Source: Pseudooceanicola sp. (GTDB lineage Bacteria; Pseudomonadota; Alphaproteobacteria; Rhodobacterales; Rhodobacteraceae). From it: a stretch of DNA of 37,836 bases. Positions 1,089 through 34,816 of the stretch are shown here, in pieces (position 1 is the stretch's first letter; every line of letters begins with the position of its first letter). The translations under genes and the position numbers were made by a program. The notes under the pieces are model-generated. The model was not told where the DNA came from, ran no database searches, and saw nothing but the letters and a program-made list of their open reading frames with translations. The stretch is taken from assembly GCA_002709085.1 (NCBI GenBank), contig PAPR01000045.1, forward strand, positions 1 through 37,836, written 5' to 3'.

Positions 1089-1821
1089 GGTTCTCGATAC
1101 ATTTTTTATTTTCCGCTACCGCTCCAAATAAAAACCACTCGAACTGACAGAGGGAAGCCAATTGTCAGGTCGAGTGAATTTTAAGAAGGCGAGAGCCGAG
1201 TTAAAAGTTGTATCGAGACCATTTTTGATGGGGAGACAGCTTTTGCAGAACAAGGGTTCTCGATACATTTTTCATTTTCCGCTACCGCTCCAAATAAAAA
1301 ACACTCGAACTGACAAAAGTAGGCCGAATGTCAGGTCGAGTGAATTTGAGGGAGGCGGCAGCCGAACTCAAATTTGTATCGAGACCATTTTTTGCTGGGG
1401 AGACAGCTTTTGCAGAACAAGGGTTCTCGATACATTTCGACAAGCTCAATACAAGCATTTTTTATTTTCCGCTACCGCTCCAAATAAAAAACACTCGAAC
1501 TGACAGAGGAAGGCAGAGCAACGGTTCTCGATACATTTTTTTAACAACGCTAACGCTATGTTGAAAAACACTCGAACTGACAAAAGTAGGCCGAATGTCA
1601 GGTCGAGTGAATTTGAGGGAGGCGGCAGCCGAACTCAAATTTGTATCGAGACCTTTTTTTGCTGGGGAAACAGTTTTTGCGGATCAAGGTTCTCGATACA
1701 TTTTTTATTTTCCGCTATCGCTCCAAATAAAAAACACTCGAACTGACATAGGGAGGCCGTGAAAGGTTCTCGATGCAAATCCGAAAATGCTATCTCATTT
1801 TCAGATTCACTCGAACTGACA
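1089..1821. repeat. Array of palindromic REP-like elements in alternating orientation
   Basis: Six elements of the form GGTTCTCGATACA ... CACTCGAACTGACA begin at 1089, 1255, 1422, 1523, 1688 and 1765, ending at 1149, 1315, 1505, 1582, 1748 and 1821. Three inverted relatives (TGTCAGGTCGAGTG ... TTGTATCGAGACC) lie at 1163-1220, 1329-1386 and 1596-1653. A plus/minus pair plus spacer makes a higher-order unit of about 166 bp, seen at 1089, 1255 and 1523. Each element folds on itself: outer arms are conserved and inner arms differ between copies but remain complementary. The copy at 1422 has about 20 extra bases (CGACAAGCTCAATACAAG type). Open frames crossing this array are artefacts of the repeats. 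The array fills the gap between the exostosin gene and the GT4 gene at 1828. Confidence 0.88.
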
Positions 1822-4118: not shown

Positions 4119-5950
4119 CTAAACTTTGTTAGGGCGTAGAGCGTAAAGATAGGCCATTTTAAATCCTCATTTTTCTGAAAATGGGAGCTGAGCATCTTTT
4201 CGACATTCTTCTTTTCAAAACCAAATCTGGAAAGATCTGCATCCAATAGATGCTCGCTAACTTTTTCTCTCAAATCTTGTCTCAACCAAGCAGTAAGTGG
4301 AACTGAAAACCCTTTCTTTACTTTTTCTTCCGCAACAGCAGGTATGCGTGAGTTAAGCAATCCTTTTAATAATTGTTTTTGTTCCCCTTTGCCATAACTT
4401 AGTAAGGGATCTATTTGCAAGGAAGCTTCTATCACATTTTTATCCAAAAAGGGTACGCGAACTTCGAGACTATTCTGCATACTTGCCAGATCTACTTTTC
4501 GCAAGGTTTTCTGCATCATTCCATAGAATTCTGAATACCGCATATTGCACAATAATTGACGGATATCCCGGGTATTGGAGTATTGATACACTCCATAAGA
4601 TTGAGGCAGTTCTATATCTTGCAAGTGTGGCGCAATTTCGTTGAGCCAATTTTTTCGGAATCGAGAATGAAGGCCTTGTTGCGCTTTGCCTTGACTAGGG
4701 GCCAATAAAACGCTATTCACACGCTTATTACCTGTGGTATATTTATCAATTCCATACAAAAGCTTTCTGAAGATTTCCGGGTAATGTTGATAGGATATGT
4801 TTTTTCCAATACTCCAAAAGCGTTCATAGCCAAAAAAAAGTTCATCTCCTCCATCCCCACTTAAAGAAACAGTAACTTTTTTCTTAGCCAATTTGGATAC
4901 TAAATAAGTTGGTAAAATACTAAAATCAGCAAACGGCTCATGTAATGAAGCCATTGCCTCGTCCCAATAGCTTAAAGCTTCGGTTGCCGACAGTTGCCAA
5001 ATTTGCTGCTGCAATTCCATGGCCTCCGCAAATTGTTGGGCCCTGGCAGATTCATCGTGTTTCTGGCTATCGGAACCAATTGTAAAAACCTGCGGGTTCC
5101 TAGTATAATCCCTTATATAAGAAGTTATTAAACTCGAATCTACTCCCCCAGATAAAAAAGCTCCCAGGGGAACATCCGAAAGTAACTGGCTACCCACCGA
5201 TTGGGAAATTTTATCGGAAATATATTGTGACGCTTTCTTTCTATCTATAACGGAATATATAGATGTTTTGGGCAATTCCCAATATCGTGTTTTATTATAC
5301 TGTCCATTCTTTGTGAAAGTAATAATTTCACCAGGATTGACTTGATAAGTATCGGTATATAAGCCGAAAGGAGCAGGCATGAAATGTTGTTCCAAATAGA
5401 GTTTTAGAACTTGGGGATCTATGGATTTTTCTGTAAAACTGGGATGTGAAAAAATCTGATCATATTGACTTGCGGCCACTAAAGTGTGTCCATCCCATCC
5501 ATAAAAGAGGGGCTTGATTCCAGCAAAATCGCGGACTAAATGTATTTCATCCAAATCCTTATCATAAACAACCATTGAAAACATACCATTCAATTTCTTT
5601 ATGGTATCAATCACTCCCCACTCAACAAAGCAGGCTACAATGGTCTCCGTATCACTATGGCCTTTAAAGGCAATATAATCCAATTGCCGTCGCAATTCCA
5701 GATGATTATAAATTTCACCGTTAAAGACTAGGGTATAACGAGCGTTATGGCTATGCATTGGCTGCTCCCCGGCCGCGGTGAGTTCCAAGATAGCAAGTCT
5801 ATTGAAGCCGAACTGTAAATTTGAACCGTTGGAAAACCATCCTTGCGAATCGGGTCCACGCCTTCTTGATTTGCGCAACAAATCGAGAAAATGAGGTTTA
5901 GACATGATCGATCGTCCCCCTATATTAAGCTCAACCAAAAATCCGCACAT
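4115..5950 (-). CDS. asnB: Glutamine-dependent asparagine synthetase-like amidotransferase (AsnB type)
   Basis: A complete two-domain class II amidotransferase of 611 residues. The start is fixed by MCGF: Cys2 becomes the N-terminal nucleophile that releases ammonia from glutamine. The glutaminase domain shows RRRGPDSQG (29-37), NRLAILELTAAGEQPM (50-65) and FNGEIYNH (76-83). The synthetase domain has the PP-loop SGGVDSS (267-273) for ATP and a later SLSGDGGDELFFGYERF. In polysaccharide loci such proteins are thought to amidate uronic acids or similar carboxylates rather than make free asparagine; that role is inferred here from the neighbours. The gene overlaps the next GT4 gene by 4 bp and follows the sulfotransferase stop (5956) after 5 bp. 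The symbol denotes the family, not proven function. Confidence 0.88.
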   Translation of the reverse strand: MCGFLVELNIGGRSIMSKPHFLDLLRKSRRRGPDSQGWFSNGSNLQFGFNRLAILELTAAGEQPMHSHNARYTLVFNGEIYNHLELRRQLDYIAFKGHSDTETIVACFVEWGVIDTIKKLNGMFSMVVYDKDLDEIHLVRDFAGIKPLFYGWDGHTLVAASQYDQIFSHPSFTEKSIDPQVLKLYLEQHFMPAPFGLYTDTYQVNPGEIITFTKNGQYNKTRYWELPKTSIYSVIDRKKASQYISDKISQSVGSQLLSDVPLGAFLSGGVDSSLITSYIRDYTRNPQVFTIGSDSQKHDESARAQQFAEAMELQQQIWQLSATEALSYWDEAMASLHEPFADFSILPTYLVSKLAKKKVTVSLSGDGGDELFFGYERFWSIGKNISYQHYPEIFRKLLYGIDKYTTGNKRVNSVLLAPSQGKAQQGLHSRFRKNWLNEIAPHLQDIELPQSYGVYQYSNTRDIRQLLCNMRYSEFYGMMQKTLRKVDLASMQNSLEVRVPFLDKNVIEASLQIDPLLSYGKGEQKQLLKGLLNSRIPAVAEEKVKKGFSVPLTAWLRQDLREKVSEHLLDADLSRFGFEKKNVEKMLSSHFQKNEDLKWPIFTLYALTKFR

Positions 5951-34475: not shown

Positions 34476-34531
34476 TGTCAGGTTGAGTGGATTTGGGGGA
34501 GCGGTAACTAGCTCAAGTTTGTATCGAGACC
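34476..34531 (-). repeat. REP-like palindromic element, minus orientation
   Basis: Begins TGTCAGGTTGAGTG and ends TTGTATCGAGACC, the same outer arms as the inverted copies in the 1089-1821 array more than 32 kb away. The inner arms (GATTTGGGGGAGC / GCTCAAGTTT) differ from those copies but still largely pair. Confidence 0.75.
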
Positions 34532-34535
34532 TTAT

Positions 34536-34609
34536 TTGGGTTGTTTGTTCTCGGTTGTCTGTTGTCTGTTGTCTGTTGTCGGTTTGAGCTTGCCTGATTA
34601 AGGTTGTCT
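34536..34609. repeat. Heptamer array plus tail; copy 2 of the direct repeat shared with 17491-17570
   Basis: Starts TTGGGTTGTTTGTTCTC, continues with GTTGTCT/GTTGTCG heptamers (34547-34582) and ends with TTTGAGC ... GCCTGATTAAGGTTG, the same order and orientation as at 17491-17570. The main differences are heptamer variants and one T fewer in the tail. Confidence 0.75.
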
Positions 34610-34642
34610 GTTCTCGGTTATCGGTTGTCGGTGGTGGATTCA

Positions 34643-34671
34643 GGATTTGGGATTTGGGATTTGGGATTTGG
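34643..34671. repeat. GGATTTG heptamer array
   Basis: Four perfect 7-bp units of GGATTTG. A further GTTGTCT/GTTCTCG/GTTATCG run occupies 34603-34631. The remainder to 34768 is low-complexity with no gene. Confidence 0.75.
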
Positions 34672-34768
34672 CACTTCGACAAGTGTGACAGTTGGGGAAT
34701 TGGTGAATCTGTGAGTGTGTGAGTATGTTGAAGCGGTTAATTGGGATTTGGGGTTGCAGTACAGAAGC

Positions 34769-34816
34769 GGTTCTCGATACATTCGCCTCGTGCCTCGGCG
34801 AACACTCGAACTGACA
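34769..34816 (+). repeat. REP-like palindromic element, plus orientation
   Basis: GGTTCTCGATACA and CACTCGAACTGACA flank an inner stem TTCGCC/GGCGAA that is unrelated in sequence to the inner stems of the other copies but perfectly self-complementary. Confidence 0.8.

Follow-up and report, generated by a model that had tools for sequence, protein, structure and literature searches.

The hairpin array and its contig

The window, by which we mean the whole 37,836 bp stretch analysed (contig PAPR01000045.1 of an assembly labelled Pseudooceanicola sp., GCA_002709085.1), contains an array of nine hairpins between 1090 and 1821, and a further two near 34.5-34.8 kb (Table 1). Positions 1828-33199 hold a surface-sugar type gene cluster with glycosyltransferases, an asparagine synthase, an ABC transporter and a sulfotransferase-like ORF. 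All copies named in the initial annotation are present where it placed them; absent from it were a minus-strand copy (1163-1220) and a decayed one (34476-34531). The arms read xyTCTCGATAC on the left and ACTCGAuvTGACA on the right, where x,y = G,T accompanies u,v = A,C in plus-strand copies and G,G accompanies C,C in minus-strand copies; the GT/AC and GG/CC outer arms are themselves a compensatory change.

Table 1. Hairpins and spacers in the window, named by the x,y/u,v bases of their outer arms; z, DNA folding score.
Feature	Position	Strand	Remarks
hairpin GT/AC	1090..1149	+	inner stem TTTTTTATTT/AAATAAAAA; z -2.53 on TGTCA strand, -1.78 on other strand
hairpin GG/CC	1163..1220	-	inner stem TTTTAA/TTAAAA; left end of unit 1163-1315; z -2.40 on TGTCA strand, -1.52 on other strand
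spacer between unlike unit ends	1221..1255; further copies 1387-1422, 1654-1688	.	GIY-YIG gene in one such place in L198
hairpin GT/AC	1256..1315	+	right end of unit 1163-1315
hairpin GG/CC	1329..1386	-	inner stem AATTTGAG/CTCAAATT; left end of unit 1329-1505
hairpin GT/AC	1423..1505	+	~23 extra bases in left part, including TTCGACAAGCTCA core
hairpin GT/AC	1524..1582	+	inner stem including AACA/TGTT; z -1.93
hairpin GG/CC	1596..1653	-	left end of unit 1596-1748
hairpin GT/AC	1689..1748	+	right end of unit 1596-1748
hairpin GT/AC	1766..1821	+	inner stem AATCCGAAAATG/CATTTTCAGATT; z -4.30
decayed hairpin GG/CC	34476..34531	-	one arm is ACTCAA
hairpin GT/AC	34770..34816	+	inner stem TTCGCC/GGCGAA; z -1.70

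On the TGTCA strand, five window copies gave folding z-scores between -1.70 and -4.30, so individual copies are not all remarkable by themselves. The interior of the most distal hairpin is identical in Aequorivita sp. UBA3180 (L041), and the sequence between the two distal hairpins (34540-34680) contains runs of GTTGTCT/GGTTGTC and of an ATTTGGG unit.

The contig looks misbinned and probably derives from an Aequorivita-like flavobacterium: its G+C content is 36.9%, compared with 55.5-63.2% in 11 stretches taken from 10 of the assembly's other contigs, and the flanks of the array are 93-94% identical to L198, a locus from a MAG titled Aequorivita sp. UBA3180 and the best relative among the loci fetched. 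The remainder of the assembly, judged by its G+C and by familiar repeats, is probably Rhodobacteraceae-like. The element pattern had no exact match on any other contig of the assembly or in a sample of 197 other genomes of the assembly's family, and Y1 transposase had no match in the assembly; because the contig looks misbinned, the negatives from its own assembly say little.

Distribution and covariation of the hairpins

A genome scan with the element pattern yielded at least 119 stretches. Among the matches listed, titles were of Flavobacteriaceae or other Bacteroidetes, except for two Candidatus Dojkabacteria MAGs and one cyanobacterial MAG (L056, L061, L132); the first two of these look like true elements, perhaps binning errors, while L132 is scarcely paired and chance-like. 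Within one family (sample around G209) the pattern occurred in 58 of 199 genomes and a reversed control in none of the 199.

We analysed 464 copies in 160 loci, counting identical contexts once; loci L035-L153 had been selected with a search pattern in which the arms are partly fixed, and nuclease loci (see below) otherwise. Positions x and v form a Watson-Crick pair in 444 of the 464 copies (G-C 289, C-G 134, A-T 13, T-A 8), and y pairs with u in 460. The tag reads TGTCA in 384 copies, CGTCA in 70, AGTCA in 6 and GGTCA in 4, the search pattern having left only the first base free. Further in, a mean of 5.38 of the first six positions are paired, against 2.94 +- 0.05 with shuffled partners (368 of 374 unique cores; best of 1000 shuffles, 3.12). 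The 136 unique interiors among the matches listed in the genome scan gave 5.47 for the first six inner pairs, against 2.95 +- 0.09 (maximum 3.26 in 2000 shuffles), and one copy per locus (156 loci) gave 5.49 against 2.96 (highest shuffle 3.24). Sliding one partner by 1-3 bases lowered the paired fraction from 0.90 to 0.30-0.53. All six inner positions are paired in 198 of the 368 cores, so pairing is the rule, with exceptions; the inner stem has a median of 7 pairs, and loops are longer in many copies.

Pairing thus maintains the hairpin at two places, the foot (x-v, y-u) and an inner stem whose sequence is free, around a TCGA/TCGA pair that is constant. The initial annotation had proposed that inner stems differ between copies yet stay complementary; this is borne out well beyond the window, and the outer bases covary too. 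Its suggestion of selection for the hairpin is likewise supported by the excess of pairing over shuffled partners, and in none of the three sets (136 interiors, 368 cores, one copy per locus) are the interiors random with respect to complementarity.

Stem arms drift by ordinary single mutations. Of 69 near-identical pairs of array copies, 42 have identical stems, and the remainder show 35 one-sided and 3 two-sided changes, a ratio that fits mutation followed by selection for pairing. Orthologous Maribacter loci (L037, L116, L137), compared by eye, mix one-sided and compensated changes. Adjacent copies in a Polaribacter array (L101:56-1412) show stepwise change at the same stem pairs.

Folding seems to take place on the strand that starts with the tag, since single internal mismatches in otherwise good stems become G-T/G-U on the TGTCA strand in 45 cases and on the opposite strand in 11 (p 5e-6); counted by locus the asymmetry is 33 to 11 (p 0.001), to which related copies or mutation bias could contribute.

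Paired units with unlike ends

A unit has the form TGTCA-hairpin-spacer-hairpin-TGACA, an inverted pair with a TGTCA (or CGTCA) tag facing outward at both ends. In clusters away from locus ends (window and L035-L153) we counted 68 single hairpins and, among pairs, 39 tag-outward, 7 tag-inward and 2 direct; many copies therefore stand outside any recognisable pair (68 isolated singles against 48 isolated pairs).

The two ends of an inverted pair are nearly always of unlike foot type. Feet differ between adjacent hairpins in 100 of 106 pairs with tags outward and in 71 of 72 with tags inward, but in only 4 of 47 direct pairs. With one pair per locus, unlike feet were found in 64 of 70 outward pairs (expected 46.5, maximum of 2000 shuffles 59), 35 of 36 inward pairs (expected 22.5, maximum 30) and 3 of 28 direct pairs (expected 13.0, minimum 6). 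Interiors behave in the same way, with identity over six bases of 0.50 and 0.49 between inverted partners and 0.85 between direct ones. Each end of a unit carries its own, internally compensated foot pairs.

A solo GIY-YIG nuclease gene between the hairpins

An all-against-all comparison of ORFs in the at least 119 loci and the window revealed one small gene that lies near the repeats throughout its cluster, encoding a solo GIY-YIG protein of 96 residues found at 7 loci. All 7 members lie 0-158 bp from an element, and among the eight widest ORF clusters this one alone does so. The other seven were rejected as candidate partners, since they sit for the most part hundreds to thousands of bases away from any element, and the four whose representatives were scanned proved to be ordinary host genes (coding for an ABC exporter, a LytTR regulator, a VWA/TonB-type protein and a leucyl-tRNA synthetase, the last an ORF containing a DUF559 domain, L086:386-3823). 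One of the seven GIY-YIG loci, L089, belongs to a different clade; there (5422-5775) a different solo GIY-YIG protein sits amid other repeats, with the form TGTCATTC...GAAGAATCT.

Arms with at most one mismatch occur within 300 bp on both sides of all 46 nuclease loci at 61% identity or more, of which 19 came from genomes chosen for the repeat and 27 from a family sample drawn regardless of it; the latter are flanked on both sides in 27 of 27 cases. Arm density is 20.6 per kb in the first 150 bp around the gene and about 0.3 per kb beyond 900 bp, and arms often lie ~27 bp upstream and ~11 bp downstream of it. Where both types are readable, the bracketing ends are mostly unlike. Units bearing the nuclease measure 395-468 bp from tag to tag (21 of 46 loci, those with both ends found close by), and four of them (L205, L219, L220, L222) have CGTC at both ends. 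Visual inspection of 8-base flanks at the 21 units showed no evident target-site duplication; some mobile elements leave none. Two loci depart from the pattern: L207, at 59% identity, has arms on one side only, and L245 has a different palindrome.

A nuclease match at 1e-10 was found in 32 of 40 element-bearing genomes and in none of the other 8. A contrast of these 32 of 40 genomes with 3 of 197 in the assembly's family was set aside, as the two sets seem to represent different lineages. In the 199-genome sample around G209, 73 genomes have a nuclease match at 1e-12 and 33 at 3.2e-31 or better; with the latter set, 26 genomes have both nuclease and repeat, 7 the nuclease only, 32 the repeat only and 134 neither (Fisher p 8.8e-11, kinship ignored). 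Thus 32 of the 58 repeat-positive genomes are without a close nuclease in their assemblies. Conversely, 7 of the 33 nuclease genomes are without the exact pattern; in six of these (G305, G275, G407, G356, G432, G268) the nuclease locus is flanked on both sides by arms that have no more than one mismatch.

The protein matches the PF01541 profile (E 1.5e-15), and 36 aligned proteins share 17 invariant columns, among them Y7, Y17, G19, R27 and E65, which we take to be the catalytic residues. A fold search with its AlphaFold model (pLDDT 84.7) returned the UPF0213 protein 1ZG2 (E 3.4e-5), 1YWL (0.011), Slx1 (0.09) and the UvrC N domain (0.5), 1ZG2 alone falling below 0.001. The nuclease thus resembles UPF0213 and other solo GIY-YIG proteins (1ZG2 BH0048, 1YWL EF2693), Slx1 and the UvrC N domain in predicted fold and in PF01541, and would be expected to cleave DNA. 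It is under purifying selection: dN/dS is 0.04-0.20 in 15 of 18 close pairs and undefined in 3, several synonymous distances exceeding 1 (saturated) and some pairs coming from other clades.

Gain and loss at orthologous sites

The GIY-YIG nuclease gene is absent from the window. In its relative, L198, the corresponding array comprises ten hairpins, and an intact GIY-YIG gene of 97 codons lies there with a GG/CC end on one side and a GT/AC end on the other. The flanks of the two arrays match, and the window is without a ~545 bp segment that includes the gene, with breakpoints inside two GT/AC hairpins; window region 1252-1327 matches two L198 hairpin copies and contains the breakpoint of the missing segment. 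Since one window unit is in turn missing from L198, units come and go. Homologous recombination between hairpins suffices for the loss in the window and explains it equally well. Both arrays share an interruption (window 1435-1457) in which TTCGACAAGCTCA forms the core of another repeat type, and this interruption is therefore older than the split between window and L198.

A Maribacter site is, depending on the genome, empty, occupied by another REP-like repeat, occupied by a single hairpin, or occupied by the nuclease with hairpins; its flanks are too diverged to place the insertion point. Presence and absence at orthologous sites are thus seen both here and between window and L198, with boundaries that are too diverged, or lie within repeats, to display a clean insertion.

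Nuclease clades and their repeats

Flanks read at nucleases of less than 61% identity contain other palindromes. In this range 25 of 34 loci share 14-mers between the upstream and downstream 400 bp, compared with 3.0% of 3000 random windows, a background unmatched for intergenic setting. Four arm types, defined after the flanks were read, account for 97 of 110 loci (arms within 350 bp), and 13 loci carry none. On a tree of 109 nucleases, poorly resolved with 63 of 106 inner branches open, type A repeats change twice against a shuffled mean of 36.3; the corresponding figures are 4 (10.7) for type B, 13 (22.7) for C, 7 (10.6) for D and 11 (12.5) for loci with none. Repeat type tracks nuclease clade.

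A nuclease from the assembly's family, used as query, had matches in 30 of 289 genomes of the assembly's class. We take this class to be the Alphaproteobacteria, and thus another phylum; named plasmid matches, including Methylobacterium, Sphingomonas and Sinorhizobium, fit that assignment. A strict scan for tagged hairpins beside nucleases of this class found them on either side at 7 of 32 loci (the 30 plus L185 and L187) and on both sides at none, with a background of 18 in 320 windows. A different hairpin, TGAG...TCGAA, lies within 300 bp on some side of 16 of the 32 loci and on both sides of 11, against 2 of 123 more distant windows, a count made after the motif had been seen in the flanks and so no independent test. 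In its long version, ATCCTGAGGA...TCTCGAAGGAT, constant arms enclose covarying interiors (4.43 of 5 positions paired against 2.40 shuffled, maximum 3.04; 23 interiors, 12 loci). The GIY-YIG loci of these presumed Alphaproteobacteria are of the same design, with other arms, and less regular.

Proposed mechanism and alternatives

Taken together, the hairpins are likely a mobile element. Judging from sequence, it is probable that the GIY-YIG nuclease drives their spread and that the window array is degenerate and built of short non-autonomous elements. We infer mobility by the nuclease from the anatomy of the units. The enzyme would recognise the constant foot (TCGA pair, two-base bulge and tag) together with a stem of any sequence, and would nick close to the tag whenever the TGTCA strand was in an extruded or single-stranded state. 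Such a nick could start copying or movement of whatever the two ends enclose, be it the enzyme's own gene (a unit of ~0.4 kb) or a mere spacer (a unit of ~0.1-0.2 kb). Because the stem would be read by shape, its letters could drift freely as long as they pair, and unlike ends would probably stop the two inverted ends from annealing together.

A different relation between gene and repeats, which we consider unlikely, is that the GIY-YIG gene is a homing-type gene landing in arrays, or a guard that trims replication-stalling hairpins, while the repeats spread by other means. Adjacency and co-divergence suit a target or substrate equally well as an element's own end, repeats without a close nuclease are common, and the structure-specific Slx1 and UvrC N domain are listed after UPF0213 in the fold search, at weak E values (0.09 and 0.5). 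Against this stands the tight bracketing (~27 bp upstream, 11 bp downstream) by mostly unlike ends, as in gene-free units, which is expected of the ends of the gene's own unit.

Selection might instead act on a transcript, with the hairpins serving as terminators or mRNA stabilisers. The tolerated mismatches, mostly G-U/G-T on the TGTCA strand (45 vs 11), are expected of RNA and of single-stranded DNA alike; the adjoining of both orientations in inverted pairs, an Rfam search whose one match in 901 bases was at chance level (E 0.33; 18.8 bits against a gathering score of 184), and the nuclease, which an RNA function leaves unexplained, make such a role quite improbable.

The initial annotation had pointed to a RAYT-like transposase, that is, to movement of the hairpins by a Y1 (HUH) enzyme, TnpA_REP. 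Inverted REP pairs do look like REPINs, Y1_Tnp matches above the cut-off are present in 22 of 40 element-bearing genomes, and complete hairpins lie within ~0.6 kb of 2 of 30 Y1 loci (L166, L177). The remaining 18 genomes, however, are without a Y1 match, including the complete chromosome NZ_CP058983.1, which has a flanked GIY-YIG gene; the other 28 of the 30 Y1 loci examined (of 57 listed places) are without a complete hairpin of the TGTCA type; and there is no conserved GTAG next to the hairpins, the tag being TGTCA. We regard a RAYT as very improbable as the main agent here.

Scarcely credible is a templated process (gene conversion, strand switching or reverse transcription) that rewrites both stem arms at once: interiors do differ wholly between families while remaining paired, but the 35 one-sided against 3 two-sided changes among the 69 near-identical pairs, and the mixture of one-sided and compensated changes in the three Maribacter orthologues, leave the diversifying or reverse-transcriptase process of the initial annotation unsupported.

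Relation to known repeats

The preferred reading, a GIY-YIG nuclease moving units between unlike hairpin ends, bears on a known group of repeats. REPs tagged with CGTC, with TGTC variants, were described in 2013 as being without a dedicated transposase (Di Nocera, De Gregorio, Rocco 2013, PMC3733652). As far as that paper's text describes them, they have an unpaired CGTC (or TGTC, CCTC) tag at one foot, an 8-9 bp stem and a 4-5 base loop; inverted dimers predominate, heterodimers are frequent and left unexplained, and REP-decorated excinuclease ABC proteins are mentioned (PMC3733652). Relative to this description, the hairpins here have in common the CGTC/TGTC foot tag, the inverted dimers, the frequent heterodimers, the lack of a Y1 gene beside them and similar hosts (Bacteroidetes and alphaproteobacteria), and differ in a two-base bulge, an inner stem of free sequence and a bracketed GIY-YIG gene (PMC3733652). 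Their TGTCA/CGTCA foot carries the tag; in place of the short stem and loop they show foot pairs, a bulge and a separate inner stem; and isolated pairs are inverted in 39 + 7 cases against 2 direct, although tag-outward may not equal the HH orientation of PMC3733652. Because stem length and inner stem are unlike those of the 2013 families, we treat the hairpins as a variant of CGTC REPs.

REP/RAYT systems (REPtrons and REPINs, as presented in PMC6006769) likewise place a small nuclease gene amid many hairpins, with non-autonomous inverted pairs elsewhere. There the enzyme is an HUH tyrosine nuclease and the foot GT[AG]G; here it is a GIY-YIG protein with a TGTC/CGTC tag and unlike ends, and the hairpins lack the GT[AG]G foot and seldom lie beside a Y1/TnpA_REP gene. 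No report tying GIY-YIG genes to REP-like repeats was found in the open-access literature, judged by titles and the beginnings of abstracts, and the terms GIY-YIG and GIY are absent from the main texts of PMC6006769, PMC3733652 and PMC12306157.

A broader proposal, for which we see the chances as even, is that solo GIY-YIG nucleases are the missing enzymes of the CGTC/TGTC REP superfamily and form with their hairpins a separate class of very small (~0.4 kb) autonomous mobile elements, whose unlike hairpin ends are recognised by their shape and not their sequence; such elements would occur in two phyla or more and account for some of the most common intergenic palindromes of bacteria. The proposal would explain two oddities, namely the complete change of interiors that nevertheless remain paired and the rarity of identical ends in inverted pairs. 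If true, this mobile DNA system would be very small, consisting of a 96-residue nuclease that acts on hairpins recognised by shape. REPs are common small bacterial repeats, and a nuclease clade that is itself bracketed by them makes the question of their missing enzyme testable at the bench.

In integron attC sites the foot is constant, some bases are bulged, and the paired interior varies in sequence and is recognised by its shape; the hairpins here share the constant foot, the bulge and the variable paired interior, and differ in sequence, and no integrase or cassette was noticed. Beside other GIY-YIG clades, the short palindromes TCGAGCGCAGTCGAGA and TGAGCTTGTCGAA look nearer to the stem and loop of the 2013 CGTC REPs.
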